Shown here: piece after piece, positions 16,712 to 55,893 of the stretch
How positions within the stretch are numbered: the stretch's first letter is position 1
How the letters are laid out: each line of letters opens with the position of its first letter
DNA from: Candidatus Methanosphaera massiliense
GTDB lineage: Archaea > Methanobacteriota > Methanobacteria > Methanobacteriales > Methanobacteriaceae
Length of the DNA: 64,000 nucleotides
Direction of reading: 5' to 3'
Assembly (NCBI RefSeq): GCF_028890305.1
Contig: NZ_JARBXM010000001.1
Span: 1,468,501 to 1,532,500 of the forward strand
Program-made: the position numbers and the translations under genes
The notes under the pieces: generated by a model
Database searches by the model: none
Told to the model about the DNA's origin: nothing
What the model saw: the letters and a program-made list of their open reading frames with translations, nothing else

Positions 16712-18724
16712 GTGGATTTTGAAATTAAATACAAAGATGCTATGGGTAGAGTAGGTAAGTTTAAAACACCACATGGTACTGTAACTACACCAGCACTCAT
16801 GCCAGTAGTTCATCCAGGTAAACAAACATTAGATGTGAAGAAATTTGGAGCAGAAATTGTTATCACAAATTCTTACATCATATACAAGAATGAAGAACTT
16901 AAAAAGAAGGCACTAGAGGAAGGAGTGCACAGTTTAATTGATTTTCCGGGAACTATAGAAACAGATTCCGGTTCATTCCAATTATCAGTTTATGGTGATA
17001 TTGACATAACAAATGAAGAAGTAATAAAATTTCAGGAAGCAATAGGAACAGATATAGGAACTTCCCTTGATATTCCGACAGCACCCTATGTAAAACGTGA
17101 AGAAGCAGAAGAAGACCTTGAAATAACAATAAAAAGAGCAGAAGAAGCATCACGTGTTAGAAGTAATCTCTTGCTAAATAGTGTAGTTCAGGGATCTACA
17201 TTTCCTGATTTAAGAGAAAAATGTGCAAAAGAAATAGCACAATATGATGCAGATATTTATCCTATTGGTGCAGTTGTACCCTTAATGGAAATGTACAGGT
17301 ATGCTGATTTAGTTGATGCAGTAATTTATTCTATGAGAGGATTACCAGAGAATAAACCTAGACATCTTATGGGTGCAGGTCATCCAATGGTATTTGCACT
17401 AGCTGTTGCAATGGGATGTGACCTATTCGATAGTGCCGCATACATACTTTATGCTAATAAAGACAGATTCATGATGCCTGAAGGTACACTTAAACTAGAA
17501 GATCTTATAGAAATGCCATGTAGCTGCAGAGTTTGTACAGAATATACTGTAGATGAATTAAAACAAATGGATAAAGAAAAAAGAGCTAAACTTATAGCTG
17601 AACATAACCTTCATGTTAGCTTTGCAGAAATAAGAAGAATAAGACAAGCTATCGTTGATGGTGAATTAATGAAACTTGTAGAATTACGTTGCAGGTCACA
17701 CCCATTCCTATTAGATGGTCTTAGAAGATTAAAAGAATACCAGCAGGACATGGAAAAACTTAATCCTAGCAGTAAAAAAACAGCATTCTTCTACACAGGA
17801 TACGAATCATTATCCAGACCCGAAGTTTCAAAACACATAAAATGTCTTAATAATCTTAAACCAAAGAATAAAAATCTTGTAATACTACCGCATACTCGTA
17901 AACCATATAGCAAGTATGTTCATAGAGAATACATTAAAAAGTATACTCCAAAGATTCCAACATTCTACTCTAACAATGATACATATTTAGATTACAGTAA
18001 TAGTGATGTTGTAGTGGCAGATGTTCCATTCGGAATTATTCCACTTAGTTTAGATGAGTATTATCCATTAGCACAGAACGAATCTCCATCAATACATGAT
18101 GAGGACTCAAAACAATTTATCAGAAATGCTATTGATGAATATACAACCATATATGATAATATATTAATTCACAGGAAAGTTATGGACAAGTTTGATTTAA
18201 AAGGATATAATCTTGTTGAAGAAGAGCTTGAACTACCAGATGCAATTGTATCTGATTTTGATAGATTAAAGGATATTGCTGATTACCAGTTTGGTACTGG
18301 TGCTGGAACAGCATTATTTGGTGATAATCCAGATAACATAACTATTGAGAAGAGTCGTAAAACCAAGAAGATTAGACACGTCTTCGAGGATGGTGCTAAT
18401 ATTGTTAACATGAGAGCTAATGATGGATTTCTCATATTATCTGATTTAGGTGCTATCAGATTACATGAATTCTTTGATGCTCCTCATATGCGTGTTGTTG
18501 TTACAGAGGATTCAGAGCCATTTGCACTTAAAGGAAAATCAGTATTTAACAAATTCGTCATGGATTGTGATGAAAATATAAGACGAAATGATGAAGTACT
18601 GATTGTTAATAAGGATGATAAATTACTAGCATTCGGTAAATCATTATTATCTAGTTATGAGATTAATGATTTTATGAGTGGTCAAGCAATAAAAACACGT
18701 AAATGGAAAAATCCCCGTGAATAG
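16712..18724 (+). CDS. tgtA: tRNA-guanine(15) transglycosylase (archaeosine biosynthesis)
   Basis: The enzyme exchanges guanine 15 in the D-loop of archaeal tRNAs for preQ0, the first tRNA step towards archaeosine. The TGT barrel carries DSGSFQ at 85-90, GAVVPLME near 186-193 and the nucleophile region GCDLFDSAAY with D240. Zinc ligands are C270, C272, C275 and a histidine near 301. After a central region the C-terminal 75 residues form a PUA RNA-binding domain (ANIVNMRANDGF...LLAFGKSLLSSYE). The length of 670 matches the archaeal family and is longer than bacterial Tgt. The start is a GTG preceded by GGTGG. It is followed within four bases by the stretch leading to pyrI. Confidence 0.96.
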   Translation: MDFEIKYKDAMGRVGKFKTPHGTVTTPALMPVVHPGKQTLDVKKFGAEIVITNSYIIYKNEELKKKALEEGVHSLIDFPGTIETDSGSFQLSVYGDIDITNEEVIKFQEAIGTDIGTSLDIPTAPYVKREEAEEDLEITIKRAEEASRVRSNLLLNSVVQGSTFPDLREKCAKEIAQYDADIYPIGAVVPLMEMYRYADLVDAVIYSMRGLPENKPRHLMGAGHPMVFALAVAMGCDLFDSAAYILYANKDRFMMPEGTLKLEDLIEMPCSCRVCTEYTVDELKQMDKEKRAKLIAEHNLHVSFAEIRRIRQAIVDGELMKLVELRCRSHPFLLDGLRRLKEYQQDMEKLNPSSKKTAFFYTGYESLSRPEVSKHIKCLNNLKPKNKNLVILPHTRKPYSKYVHREYIKKYTPKIPTFYSNNDTYLDYSNSDVVVADVPFGIIPLSLDEYYPLAQNESPSIHDEDSKQFIRNAIDEYTTIYDNILIHRKVMDKFDLKGYNLVEEELELPDAIVSDFDRLKDIADYQFGTGAGTALFGDNPDNITIEKSRKTKKIRHVFEDGANIVNMRANDGFLILSDLGAIRLHEFFDAPHMRVVVTEDSEPFALKGKSVFNKFVMDCDENIRRNDEVLIVNKDDKLLAFGKSLLSSYEINDFMSGQAIKTRKWKNPRE

Positions 18725-52004: not shown

Positions 52005-52370
52005 ATGTTTCCAGGTGGAAAAATAAATCCAAAACAATTAAAACAAATGGAAAGAACCATGAAAAAAATGGGTATGAACATGAAAGAACTTAAAGGAGTA
52101 GAAGAAGTAGTGATTGTACTCAAAGACAAAGAAATAGTAATCAAAGATGCTGAAGTAAACATCATGAACGCTATGGGACAAGAAACATACCAAGTTACAG
52201 GTAAAGCAGAAGAAAGAATAAAAAACAGTGAAAGTACTGAAGAAGCAGAGATATCTGATGAAGACATTGAATTAGTAGCATCACAGACAGGAAAATCCAA
52301 AAAAGAAGCAGAAAAAACTTTAAAAGAAACTAATGGAGATTTAGCTGAAGCTATAATGAGGTTATCCTAG
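52005..52370 (+). CDS. nac: archaeal nascent polypeptide-associated complex protein
   Basis: NAC binds nascent chains at the ribosome exit; the archaeal form is a homodimer. The 121-residue sequence has MFPGGKINPKQLKQMERTMK, a NAC domain (VEEVVIVLKDKEIVIKDAEV, GQETYQVTGKAEE) and a C-terminal UBA domain (DIELVASQTGKSKKEAEKTL). A GGAGGAA site precedes the ATG. The next gene starts at the base after its stop, so the two are cotranscribed. Confidence 0.95.
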   Translation: MFPGGKINPKQLKQMERTMKKMGMNMKELKGVEEVVIVLKDKEIVIKDAEVNIMNAMGQETYQVTGKAEERIKNSESTEEAEISDEDIELVASQTGKSKKEAEKTLKETNGDLAEAIMRLS

Positions 52371-53102
52371 ATGACAACTATTGTCCATATATCAGATTTA
52401 CATACTGGTTACACTCAGTTTAGAGAAGACCTATTACTACAAACTATTGATGAAATAAATGAAATGAAACCATCTGCTGTAATTATTACAGGAGACTTGA
52501 CAGATCATGGATTCTATAGGGAATTTGTTGAAGCAAAGAAATACATTGACATGATAGAACCTACTAAGATAATAGTACCGGGAAATCATGATGCACGTAA
52601 TATTGGTGACGAAGTATTTGAAGATCTCTTTGGTGAAAGATATGGTACTCTTGAATTAAAAGAGGAAGCAATAAAGATAATAGGATTGGACAGTAGTGAA
52701 CCTGATCTAGGACATGGTAAAATTGGTCGACTTCAGAAGAAATTCATGGAAGAAGAAATAGCCGATGCTAAGGAAAGAGGATTATTTATAATAATAGCTC
52801 TTCACCACCATATCATCTCTATACCAAACACTGGAAGAGAGAGAAATATTCTAAGTGATGCTGGAGATATATTGTTAGCATTACTGAAAAATGATGTTAA
52901 CCTAGTATTATCTGGACACAAACACGTTCCACATTTATGGAAGATGAAAAATACGATATTCTCTACTGCAGGAACAGTTTCATCAATGAAGCTAAGAGGA
53001 AATACTTGTCCTTCCTATAATATTATAGAGATAGACAATCAATATGTTGAGATAACACAGCATAATTCTGATGGAACAGAGAAAGAATTAACACAACCAT
53101 AA
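52371..53102 (+). CDS. metallophosphoesterase
   Basis: This 243-residue calcineurin-like phosphoesterase has the full metal-binding set: VHISDLHTG, IITGDLTDHG, VPGNHDARN, ALHHHII and LSGHKH. It therefore binds two metals and cleaves phosphoesters, possibly a cyclic nucleotide (class III phosphodiesterase-like) or another small phosphodiester. It is translated directly after NAC and lies 108 bases upstream of the ribonuclease/palm-protein operon. A functional link to that operon (removal of a nucleotide signal) is possible but only inferred from position. Confidence 0.92.
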   Translation: MTTIVHISDLHTGYTQFREDLLLQTIDEINEMKPSAVIITGDLTDHGFYREFVEAKKYIDMIEPTKIIVPGNHDARNIGDEVFEDLFGERYGTLELKEEAIKIIGLDSSEPDLGHGKIGRLQKKFMEEEIADAKERGLFIIIALHHHIISIPNTGRERNILSDAGDILLALLKNDVNLVLSGHKHVPHLWKMKNTIFSTAGTVSSMKLRGNTCPSYNIIEIDNQYVEITQHNSDGTEKELTQP

Positions 53103-53210: not shown

Positions 53211-54251
53211 TTGAAAATAATTGTTGATGGGTCAAATGTAGCATATTACGGACAACAAGCTGATGAAGAAACAGGAAAAGTAACACCCAGCTTAAAGACT
53301 CTAAAAGTAGCTATAAATACCCTTAAAAAGTTAGGACATGAACCAATCGTTCTAGCCGATGCACCACTACGACATGAAATTGATGATAAAGATGGCTTTA
53401 ATGAAATGATTCAGAACGAAGAAGTATTCCCAGTACCAGCTGGAACTATAGCTGATCATTACATATTAAACCTAGCATATGAAAAAGACGCAAAAATATT
53501 ATCAAACGATTTATTTAGAGATTATAGAGACGAATTTCAGGATATAGACAGTCGAAGACTACCATACAGAGTAAAAAATGGTCGCTTCCAAATTGGAAAA
53601 CCAGCGCCTCCTAAAAAAGTAAAAAACATACTTCAAAAAATCTGTTCTAAATCATTAAATGAATTTGAAAAAAGAGGATTTGACGTATATAAATCTAAGA
53701 AAAATCGTAAATTTTCAGGACTTGCAGTAGCACAGGAAGCTATAAGCAGAGTAAGTGATGAAGACGCAAACGCTATTGATTCAAAACTAGAAGATGTATT
53801 CTTAAAAATACCAATATTAAACAAAATGGTAAGCTTTGTAGATGAAGGAATGGAAGAATCAGACTTCCTAATATTCGTACTGGTAAACCCAAAAGATTAC
53901 AAAGAAGCAGTACGTAACGCAGGAACAATAGCAATAACCGTAAGAAACAAGTTAAACCTTGACCACTCACCACTAGTAGCAGTAAGAAATGACTTATTCA
54001 CAAGACCTGGAACATTCGAATTAAACATAATATACTCAGATGAAGTACTAGAAGAATCACCATACAACCTAGACATAATAATAAATGACTCAGATTACTC
54101 ATTTATTAAACACAACTCAAGAAATATAGCAAGTACAATGGCAGCCAGACTAGGAACATGGAAATTCCCAATAGTATCAGTAAAACCAAGTATGTTAATG
54201 GAAAAACCAGGACAATTCGAAATTTCAATAGAACGTGGAGGCAAAAGATAA
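53211..54251 (+). CDS. Regnase-like NYN-domain ribonuclease
   Basis: Residues 1-135 resemble the Zc3h12a (Regnase) NYN/PIN-like nuclease domain: KIIVDGSNVAYYG (D6), ADHYILNLAYEKDAKILSND (D82, D100), FRDYRDEF (D104) and a closing RLPYRVKNGRFQIGKPAPP. The acidic residues match the metal-binding site of the family, so RNA cleavage is likely. The remaining 200 residues are unrecognised and may regulate or bind substrate. The start is a TTG five bases after a near-perfect GGTGATC. Its stop abuts the ATG of the GGDD palm-like protein, so the two are coupled. The RNA target is unknown. Confidence 0.82.
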   Translation: MKIIVDGSNVAYYGQQADEETGKVTPSLKTLKVAINTLKKLGHEPIVLADAPLRHEIDDKDGFNEMIQNEEVFPVPAGTIADHYILNLAYEKDAKILSNDLFRDYRDEFQDIDSRRLPYRVKNGRFQIGKPAPPKKVKNILQKICSKSLNEFEKRGFDVYKSKKNRKFSGLAVAQEAISRVSDEDANAIDSKLEDVFLKIPILNKMVSFVDEGMEESDFLIFVLVNPKDYKEAVRNAGTIAITVRNKLNLDHSPLVAVRNDLFTRPGTFELNIIYSDEVLEESPYNLDIIINDSDYSFIKHNSRNIASTMAARLGTWKFPIVSVKPSMLMEKPGQFEISIERGGKR

Positions 54252-55469
54252 ATGGCTTTTGAAGGATTATTAAAAATCCTATTCTCTCGTCTATTAAATA
54301 AAAAAGTTATTAGTATAGGAACAAATTACTACGCTACAAATGATTTAGAAACAGAATATGTTTCACTCATAAACCTCACAAAAACAATGCTTGTAGAAAT
54401 CAAGCCTGCTGAGATAAATAGTCAAAGTATTTTTCAAAACCTTGAAAGAGAAATAGATCAACGTGACCTACCATTAAACAGGAAATTCATTGAAATCAGA
54501 CCAGCAGAAAATAAAATCAATGAATATGCACTGCTAAGTAACATTATAATGGGAAATGATCGTTATCTATACATAGAAATATTCAAACGATCACCAGTTA
54601 TAGAATCTTTCGCAAAGATGGTTGAAGTAGTAGGTGGAGAAATCATAGAAAAAAGTAAAACAGAACTTGTTTCACACATGCCTTCAAAGAAGGAAGGTAT
54701 AAGAATAGCAATTAAAATGATTTCTCTGGGAATGCAGCAAGGAGTTAACGTAAGAGGAGCAGTGGGAATGACTGGTGCAGCCTCCATTGAAAGAGCAATA
54801 GAAATGGATGCTCAAATAGGAGAAGTGTCAGGAGTCGGATTCACCAAACTCGGAGGAGAATATGGTGTAATATTCGAAACAATACCTACCACTGAAAAAG
54901 TTAAACTCACACCTGTACAAGTAGACAATTTTATGTATATAGATGCAAAGGATTCCACAGGATTTATATCAAAATACGGAAAAGACAGGCTCATAGAGAT
55001 TATGAATGATATTAATGCATACATAGCCAATGAGGGACAAGGTAAAATTGAGGGTTACCGTGTAGGTGGAGACGATTTAATTATTAACTATCCATCAAAG
55101 TCCATAGCACTGAAAACAGGACTGGACTGTGCATGGTATGCATTAAATAATGGACTAAATCTACGAGTAGGAATAGGAAACAGTAGAAAAGAAGCTGGAG
55201 AAAATGCTCATCTAACAGATTCAATCAAGATACATGACAACACACCAGTAATAGTATTTGACATGGCAAATGGTAAATACGCATACTACATACCAACAGA
55301 ATTCACAAGATCAATGATAGACTATCTTACAACAAAATCTGCAACACTAATTGGAGTATTCATATTCATATTCTTGTTAACACTGGTTGGTTGGAATACT
55401 GGAAACATGTGGCTAGGATTAATAGGTATACTGATAACCCTGATAATCGTAGTAGCCACAGGAGAATAG
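54252..55469 (+). CDS. membrane-anchored protein with GGDD palm-like (nucleotide cyclase / GTP cyclohydrolase III-like) domain
   Basis: This 405-residue protein has an N-terminal 210 residues that I do not recognise. Residues 225-340 look like a palm/cyclase fold: YIDAKDSTGFISKYG (D231) and RVGGDDLIINYP with GGDD at 272-275, followed by NLRVGIGNSRKEAGENA. That order resembles archaeal GTP cyclohydrolase III and GGDEF/Cas10-type palm domains, where the aspartates hold two metals. Two membrane helices close the protein (about 364-380 and 386-402), so the domain faces the cytoplasm. It starts on the base after the ribonuclease stop. A nucleotide-making or nucleotide-cyclising activity is inference; the homology needs profile searching. 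Confidence 0.7.
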   Translation: MAFEGLLKILFSRLLNKKVISIGTNYYATNDLETEYVSLINLTKTMLVEIKPAEINSQSIFQNLEREIDQRDLPLNRKFIEIRPAENKINEYALLSNIIMGNDRYLYIEIFKRSPVIESFAKMVEVVGGEIIEKSKTELVSHMPSKKEGIRIAIKMISLGMQQGVNVRGAVGMTGAASIERAIEMDAQIGEVSGVGFTKLGGEYGVIFETIPTTEKVKLTPVQVDNFMYIDAKDSTGFISKYGKDRLIEIMNDINAYIANEGQGKIEGYRVGGDDLIINYPSKSIALKTGLDCAWYALNNGLNLRVGIGNSRKEAGENAHLTDSIKIHDNTPVIVFDMANGKYAYYIPTEFTRSMIDYLTTKSATLIGVFIFIFLLTLVGWNTGNMWLGLIGILITLIIVVATGE

Positions 55470-55485
55470 GGGAGGTATTAAAATT
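55470..55485 (+). promoter_or_regulatory. perfect ribosome binding site pointing to an ATT start
   Basis: GGGGAGGT at 55470-55476 (after the previous stop) is followed by six bases and then ATT at 55483-55485, in frame with the Asn-rich protein. The nearest in-frame ATG is 57 bases further on, inside a membrane segment, with no ribosome binding site. The arrangement suggests initiation at a non-standard ATT codon. Confidence 0.5.
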
Positions 55486-55893
55486 AAGTCATCAACAAAT
55501 TCAAAGATAATACTTGTATTAGTTGTAGGAATAATTGCAATGCTATGTGGCTCACTAGGCGCAACTGTAATACACTTCGATGCACCCTCCCTAGATTTAG
55601 GAAGTTTATTCGAAAACAATGGCACAAATAATACAACACTGAACAATACAACAAACGAAACAAACAATACTACAATAATATACGAACAAACAAGCAATAA
55701 CAATTACAACAACTACAATACAACTTCAGGTAAAGGAAATAATTCAAATAACAATAATAATAACCACAATAAGAACAATAACAATAATAACAACAATAAC
55801 AACAACAATAATAATAATAATAATAATAACAATAATAACAATAACAATAATAAAAACGGTTCTGAAAATCAACAACAAAAGAACAATAATTAA
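55483..55893 (+). CDS. asparagine-repeat protein with N-terminal membrane anchor
   Basis: Starting at the ATT placed by a perfect GGGGAGGT, the frame gives about 136 residues. A charged N-terminus and the hydrophobic segment SKIILVLVVGIIAMLCGSLG form a signal anchor, then a threonine/asparagine-rich stretch and an uninterrupted run of 26 asparagines. An ATG at 55540 would cut off half the anchor. Low-complexity T/N tracts on one anchor are typical of cell-surface or linker segments, so most of the protein is probably outside the membrane. It closes the operon with the ribonuclease and the GGDD protein. Function is unknown. Confidence 0.6.
   Translation: MKSSTNSKIILVLVVGIIAMLCGSLGATVIHFDAPSLDLGSLFENNGTNNTTLNNTTNETNNTTIIYEQTSNNNYNNYNTTSGKGNNSNNNNNNHNKNNNNNNNNNNNNNNNNNNNNNNNNNNKNGSENQQQKNNN
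55771..55851 (+). repeat. AAT/AAC trinucleotide repeat
   Basis: An in-frame run of about 26 AAY codons, including seven consecutive AAT, encodes poly-asparagine. Such tracts change length easily by slippage, in steps of one residue, without loss of frame. Confidence 0.85.

Follow-up and report, generated by a model that had tools for sequence, protein, structure and literature searches.

The stretch analysed in this work (called the window below, 64,000 nucleotides of Candidatus Methanosphaera massiliense) carries three closely packed genes on its forward strand. The first (53211..54251, 346 amino acids, TTG start) encodes an NYN-type ribonuclease domain joined to a partner domain, the second (54252..55469, 405 amino acids, ATG start) a cyclase-like membrane protein with two palm domains in tandem, and the third (55483..55893) a small protein with one transmembrane segment and an Asn-rich tail. 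The compact three-gene layout described in the original prediction, which was made from the sequence alone, is borne out by the open reading frame (ORF) coordinates: 0 bases separate the stop of the NYN gene (54251) from the start of the palm gene (54252), and the third gene begins 13 bases past the palm stop. The first two genes, i.e. the NYN-palm pair, are a core feature of the Methanobacteriales, and we tentatively propose that they form a nucleotide-signalling module at the membrane.

The nuclease domain occupies residues 2-142 of the first protein (53214..53636) and matches PF11977 well above the cut-off (81.6 bits versus 23, E 6.6e-23). Residues D6, N9, D82 and D100 are invariant in 30 of 30 sequences; their positions were mapped onto Regnase-type proteins by alignment, and their roles are presumably the ones played there. 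Both its profile match and its residues make the nuclease an ordinary NYN member, in line with the earlier call of a Zc3h12a-type enzyme with its aspartates in place, while RNA cleavage itself is predicted. An NYN domain with conserved acidic residues is what the protein has in common with Regnase-1/ZC3H12 and KHNYN. Unlike these, the archaeal NYN is fused to a duplicated partner domain, and no zinc finger family was found in the profile scan. The partner domain spans residues 134-346 (53610..54248), and its two repeats (53862..54062 and 54063..54248) align in hhalign with a probability of 97.2 (E 3.5e-11), as compared to a maximum of 4.03 in 100 column shuffles. Two hints on this domain were not used: a DUF2286 match in 1 of 17 partner domains (E 0.004) is absent in the other members, and a Cas5-like hint (E 0.014-0.05) was taken as chance.

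A tandem duplication is found in the palm protein as well. Residues 102-214 and 224-358 align with hhalign probabilities of 96.8-98.0 (E 1.4e-13 at 98.0), and the maximum in 100 column shuffles was 6.87. The second copy, palm 2 (54915..55307), has an intact acidic site. D231 (54942..54944) and the G272-G273-D274-D275 motif (55065..55076), predicted to hold the first and the second metal aspartate, respectively, are invariant in 29 of 29 rows of a Methanobacteria alignment and in 17 of 17 rows of an alignment that includes four Methanopyrus-type sequences. The latter term denotes a sample of five genomes of one phylum, outside the class Methanobacteria, that are most likely Methanopyrales. Hydropathy further predicts two C-terminal transmembrane segments (residues 363-381 and 386-404; 55338..55463), so that the membrane palm protein with a D...GGDD motif stands as it was first described. 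Palm 1 (54555..54893) looks degenerate but not stripped of acidic residues, judging from the alignments: the position of D274 is taken by Thr, Ser, Gly or Asn in 16 of the 17 rows (it is non-acidic except in 1/17), and Glu is found at the position of D231 in 13/17 rows (28/29 in Methanobacteria) and at that of D275 in 16/17. Palm 1 also has an invariant set of its own (G172, T174, A176, A177, E180, R181, F197, K199, G201 and E203), as would be expected if it formed the other side of the cleft. Compared to Cas10 or GTP cyclohydrolase III of the same order it gave hhalign probabilities of at most 0.12, and its matches to designed repeat proteins (best 6.7e-4) were taken as a repeat artefact.

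Profile comparisons suggest that the palm protein resembles class III nucleotidyl cyclases. The 17-row profile matches 1ybt at E 1.8e-5, and the 5 distinct PDB sequences listed with E<=10 consist of 1ybt and of Ma1120/'Cyclase' entries. The 1ybt match spans approximately 130 residues of palm 2, and both D231 and D274 align with aspartates of 1ybt. We take 1ybt (Rv1900c) and Ma1120 to be class III cyclases; two of the PDB rows carry the name Cyclase. The same structure ranks first with the 29-row Methanobacteria profile (E 0.0032; 6 of 10 PDB matches are such cyclases, including the cytidylate cyclase 8jsf, and 4 are unrelated) and with palm 2 alone (E 0.0012; 6 of 20 PDB matches are cyclases, the rest unrelated). 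In addition, three PycC models of PADLOC match 2 or 3 of the 17 palm members, with best E values of 0.01-0.03. The palm call of the original prediction can in this way be narrowed to a class III cyclase-like protein. What connects it to Rv1900c/1ybt, Ma1120 and PycC is the alignment of palm 2 covering both metal aspartates, whereas the single-chain tandem, the degenerate first palm, the GGDD motif and the C-terminal membrane segments set it apart. Neither PF00211 nor the GGDEF profile is among the Pfam matches of the palm protein (on the palm gene PF00211 reaches 11.4-11.5 bits in 2/100 genomes, the cut-off being 21.9), and one Pfam scan returned 16 scattered weak matches, best E 0.014, none of them a cyclase. 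Since the Pfam cut-off is missed and one catalytic feature was not found (see below), the palm protein appears to be a class III variant and not a plain member. A CARF-like hint on the N-terminus of one palm member (E 0.011) was taken as chance and not used.

The distribution of the pair was followed in 149 Methanobacteriales genomes, 90 of them good. The palm protein is present in 145 and the NYN protein in 143 of the 149 (89/90 good genomes in each case), and every NYN-bearing genome also has the palm protein. The original prediction had named conserved adjacency within the order as something to look for, and this is what we see: in 141 of the 143 genomes having both, the two genes are on one contig and strand with NYN first. 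The gap between the matched stretches is at most 300 bases in 136 of these 141 and 309 to 2534 in the other five. NYN and palm lie on different contigs in 2/143 genomes, namely G135, where the NYN match reaches the contig end, and G136, which is discussed below. The palm protein occurs without NYN in two genomes and both are missing in four, one of them 94% complete (G056). The genome under study has one match for each (E<=0.001). Those relatives that carry a name belong to Methanosphaera and other Methanobacteriaceae, in agreement with the order assumed in the original prediction. In a survey of 20 loci from other genera, palm follows NYN in 20/20 neighbourhoods. With such occurrence (145/149 and 143/149) and adjacency (141/143), the pair is not a chance arrangement.

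A different form of the system is found outside the class. The palm protein is encoded in 5/5 Methanopyrus-type genomes, while the PF11977 ribonuclease domain has no match in any of the five. The profile of the whole NYN protein was run on 60 genomes, 11 of them outside the class; it matched one of these 11, and only over the C-terminal partner domain. In the genome of that match (L116) a 241-amino-acid partner-domain protein ends one base before a palm gene, and in all five Methanopyrus-type loci the end of the partner frame either immediately precedes the open palm frame or slightly overlaps its start. When 149 genomes were drawn around one Methanopyrus-type genome, the palm family was found in those five and in 8 Methanobacteriales; a marginal match outside both lineages (G208, E 0.008, internal stop) was not counted as a relative. 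As palm and partner are kept without the nuclease, the constant unit is the cyclase-like palm plus the partner domain, and the ribonuclease was either fused to the N-terminus in Methanobacteria or lost in the Methanopyrus-type lineage. The initial notion that the ribonuclease is the linked partner of the palm protein does not extend to these genomes. With this nuclease-free form, nature offers a comparison in which signalling between cyclase and partner can be told apart from RNA cleavage.

The pair as such has been published before, namely as 'cluster D' (OG0001213 + OG0001214) of the pseudomurein archaea (Lupo et al. 2025, PMC11915815), where the genes are annotated as a Zc3h12a-like NYN ribonuclease and a 'Nucleotide cyclase' with more than one transmembrane segment; in the available text of that paper the cluster is given no function. 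The likeness consists in the same two families by annotation, syntenic in pseudomurein archaea. Duplicated domains, an active site, a partner domain, a form without the nuclease or a mechanism are not mentioned in that text, as far as available; the paper lists cluster D and then leaves it aside. In the literature searched, as far as its text was available, only this paper appears to treat the pair, and what the present work seems to add are the architecture within the two proteins, the partner domain as the constant element and the form without a nuclease. According to the accessible passages of PMC8646023, cyclic AMP (cAMP) has been measured in archaea including Methanothermobacter, very few predicted archaeal cyclases belong to class III, and most archaea probably use an unknown enzyme class. 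In our searches Guanylate_cyc had no match at E<=1 in the genome under study, and 1 of 100 genomes of the order exceeded its cut-off (class IV (CYTH) cyclases were not searched for). The palm family is near-universal, has an intact acidic site and is missed by the curated cyclase model; for these reasons it is a concrete cyclase candidate, and it might account for the cAMP reported in Methanothermobacter. The sole class III gene over the cut-off (G082, L084:1363-2091, 27.6 bits) lies apart from the NYN-palm locus.

Our preferred reading, to which we give a probability of about 40%, is that in pseudomurein archaea the pair serves as a core nucleotide-signalling module tethered to the membrane, with a housekeeping function. 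It builds on what can be read in the sequences, i.e. the pair, its adjacency, the domain duplication, the cyclase-type homology, the conserved acidic residues and the nuclease-free second lineage. The mechanism that we infer, including catalysis, product, partner contact, control of the ribonuclease and membrane orientation, would be the following. The palm protein would fold on itself into a pseudo-heterodimer of its two palms, the counterpart of what class III cyclases form between two chains, with the metals (D231, D274/D275) held by palm 2 and the cleft completed by the degenerate palm 1. A nucleoside triphosphate would be converted into a cyclic nucleotide at the membrane, cAMP being the first candidate product. 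The duplicated partner domain might read this output, either as a direct binding partner of the palm protein or with the product as its ligand. In Methanobacteria, with the partner fused to a Regnase-like ribonuclease, the signal would switch RNA cleavage, and in Methanopyrus-type archaea the partner would act without a nuclease. In a bolder version, which we consider unlikely, the palm protein would be the cyclase so far missing in Methanobacteria and Methanopyrus-type methanogens, a membrane-bound relative of the class III cyclases in a single chain. A new sensor domain, itself duplicated and wired in Methanobacteria to a Regnase-type ribonuclease, would read its product (cAMP or a rarer cyclic nucleotide), which would amount to housekeeping RNA decay under the control of a second messenger. 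If the palm protein also controls its ribonuclease partner, second messengers would be joined to RNA decay outside immunity.

A calcineurin-like metallophosphoesterase gene (52371..53102, forward strand) lies upstream of the pair, and it had been suggested that its product could degrade a signal. Its best matches among solved structures are Rv0805, an Icc protein and the 'Phosphohydrolase' 2zo9. Rv0805 and Icc act on cyclic nucleotides, and the Rv0805/Icc-like enzyme could remove the signal in the species that keep it. Against the cAMP phosphodiesterase model PRK11148 it scores 45 bits, below the cut-off of 225. The suggestion holds as far as these nearest structures go, but the gene is a frequent and not a constant neighbour. 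In 17/20 neighbourhoods the first recognised gene encountered upstream of NYN is the phosphoesterase; of the exceptions, L048 is without it at this place, the 1.0 kb that L053 has before its contig end does not contain it, and L046 has only 0.3 kb of upstream sequence. The five Methanopyrus-type genomes encode it away from the palm pair. An orthologue away from the NYN-palm pair was also seen in some Methanosphaera-type genomes (G011, G046, G051, G067), and no match of orthologue strength was found in G028, G029 and G037.

Several points weigh against a signalling module of this kind. For the palm protein, no cyclase family exceeds any Pfam or NCBIfam cut-off, and palm 1 alone has no cyclase among its 13 PDB matches. 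Class III cyclases use a transition-state Asn/Arg pair; inspection by eye revealed it in neither of the palms, and the alignment is weak in this region. The stretch after the fourth strand looks, again by eye, closer to GTP cyclohydrolase III or Cas10, and 1/17 palm members weakly matches a PADLOC Cas10 model (E 0.042). In view of the pair not found and of the stretch after the fourth strand, the chemistry of the palm protein may differ. Since palm 1 keeps glutamates at two metal positions in Methanobacteria, it is perhaps not inert. For the partner domain, neither Pfam nor PDB yielded a convincing relative, and no ligand-binding fold is recognisable in it. In G136 (63% complete) approximately 3 kb follow NYN on its contig without a palm gene, which is on another contig; this is either a true or an assembly-made exception. 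No phosphoesterase of orthologue strength was found in 6/21 chosen genomes (no match in 3 and weak partial matches in 3), and as the ribonuclease is dispensable as well, a full make-read-erase circuit is not conserved.

Finally, the gene neighbourhood in many genera would fit RNA processing as well. Directly upstream of the phosphoesterase the window contains a gene for NAC (nascent polypeptide-associated complex; 52005..52370, forward strand, TIGR00264 E 1.9e-38). NAC is found upstream in 16/20 neighbourhoods, and a TGT gene is next before NAC in 8/20, with 2 more having unlabelled frames in between; TGT and PUA domains were found in two examples of this gene. The order TGT - NAC - phosphoesterase - NYN - palm is repeated across genera (e.g. 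L039:1524-7246). The window's own TGT homologue is an ORF starting at 16712, far from NAC. One could therefore imagine, with the TGT-NAC gene order in mind, that the palm protein serves as a scaffold in the membrane with a bound nucleotide, or as an RNA nucleotidyltransferase, and positions the NYN ribonuclease and its partner at the membrane near the translation machinery, with no diffusible signal. The near-universal distribution in the order and the unrecognised transition-state residues of cyclases are consistent with this. We nevertheless find it rather doubtful: palm and partner persist in Methanopyrus-type genomes, where PF11977 has no match, there is no TGT or NAC beside the pair in L116, and the aspartates of palm 2 are strictly kept.

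A cell-envelope sensor is a less probable and on the whole quite unlikely alternative. Here the pair, together with the small one-transmembrane protein, would monitor the pseudomurein wall and adjust RNA or enzyme activity, with nucleotide turnover as an internal relay. Two proteins of the operon have predicted membrane segments, the sampled distribution is confined to Methanobacteria and Methanopyrus-type genomes (one marginal match apart), and an independent screen picked the pair as pseudomurein-specific (PMC11915815). However, recent trees cited in the accessible text of that paper group the two lineages in one clade, and shared descent explains the distribution; its authors, in the same text, judge that cluster D is probably not involved in pseudomurein synthesis. 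Moreover, the third gene was not recognised in 3/13 genera.

It is interesting to compare the palm protein to Cas10 and GTP cyclohydrolase III, both of which have two palm domains in one chain. GGDD is found in 20/20 Cas10 genes of the same order and GGDN in one cyclohydrolase, but neither family has significant profile similarity to the palm protein and both are separate genes within the order. A metabolic role, with the palm protein as a distant relative of GTP cyclohydrolase III in cofactor synthesis, seems improbable to us. It would account for the GGD-type motif, for a similar G-I-G stretch (22 columns in hhalign, 36% identity) and for the tandem palms, which are the layout of that enzyme, but the hhalign probability is at most 11.4 and a true GTP cyclohydrolase III gene exists elsewhere in the genome (G000:C1:403640-404374) and in 94/100 genomes. 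Membership of that family was rejected, PF05165 not being matched and the profile similarity being insignificant. Membership of the Cas10/GGDEF family was ruled out in the same manner by the same-order Cas10 palms (hhalign 6.3 or less for the Cas10 profile against the palm protein) and by Pfam.

Least likely by far, and in our opinion hardly tenable, is anti-phage defence of a Pycsar- or type III CRISPR-like kind, in which infection would be sensed by a cyclase whose product activates the ribonuclease. The palm-plus-ribonuclease logic, the weak PycC matches of the palm protein, phosphoesterase matches to the PADLOC 'Effector' (5.8e-8) and to NCBIfam DS9_1 (1.6e-20, but 73 bits versus a cut-off of 420), and a PD-Lambda-2_C match of one NYN orthologue (1.6e-4) point in this direction. 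On the other hand, Cas10 is present in only 21/80 genomes of the order as opposed to the near-universal pair, and the PF11977 nuclease was not found in 5/5 Methanopyrus-type genomes. The palm protein was not found in the plasmids, phages or viral contigs searched. The genome under study has 0 matches to PF22335 (Cas10 palm), other CRISPR genes not having been searched for. An immunity role, and with it the Cas10/Csm6 analogy drawn at the outset, is not supported, given the core status of the pair, the lack of palm matches in the phages, plasmids and viral contigs searched, and the insignificant similarity to Cas10; the defence reading was ruled out on distribution and on phage, plasmid, viral-contig (palm only), PADLOC and PHROGs searches.

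The third gene is accessory. It encodes, as had been foreseen, an anchored Asn-rich protein with one hydrophobic segment and 56 Asn among 136 residues; the Asn-rich stretch covers 55606-55893 of the window, and 11 N-x-S/T sequons are present. A small one-transmembrane protein with a low-complexity tail is located at the same place in 10/13 genera as judged by eye, and no counterpart was recognised by eye in the remaining three (L041, L042, L045). The Asn run belongs to one species, and Ser/Gly runs replace it in some related Methanosphaera. When ATG, GTG and TTG starts are allowed, the ORF listing gives this gene as 55540-55893 only. The frame is open from 55483 to 55893, i.e. 136 codons from an ATT that is preceded by a strong ribosome-binding sequence (GGGGAGGT). 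This ATT (55483-55485) aligns with the ATG of relatives and is the probable start, and the N-terminal hydrophobic motif is common with the frames of relatives (by eye). Near-cognate starts are also seen in other Methanosphaera-type loci (ATT in L003, L014 and L018, ATA in L012), whereas elsewhere the gene begins with TTG in L011/L037 and with ATG in most other loci compared.

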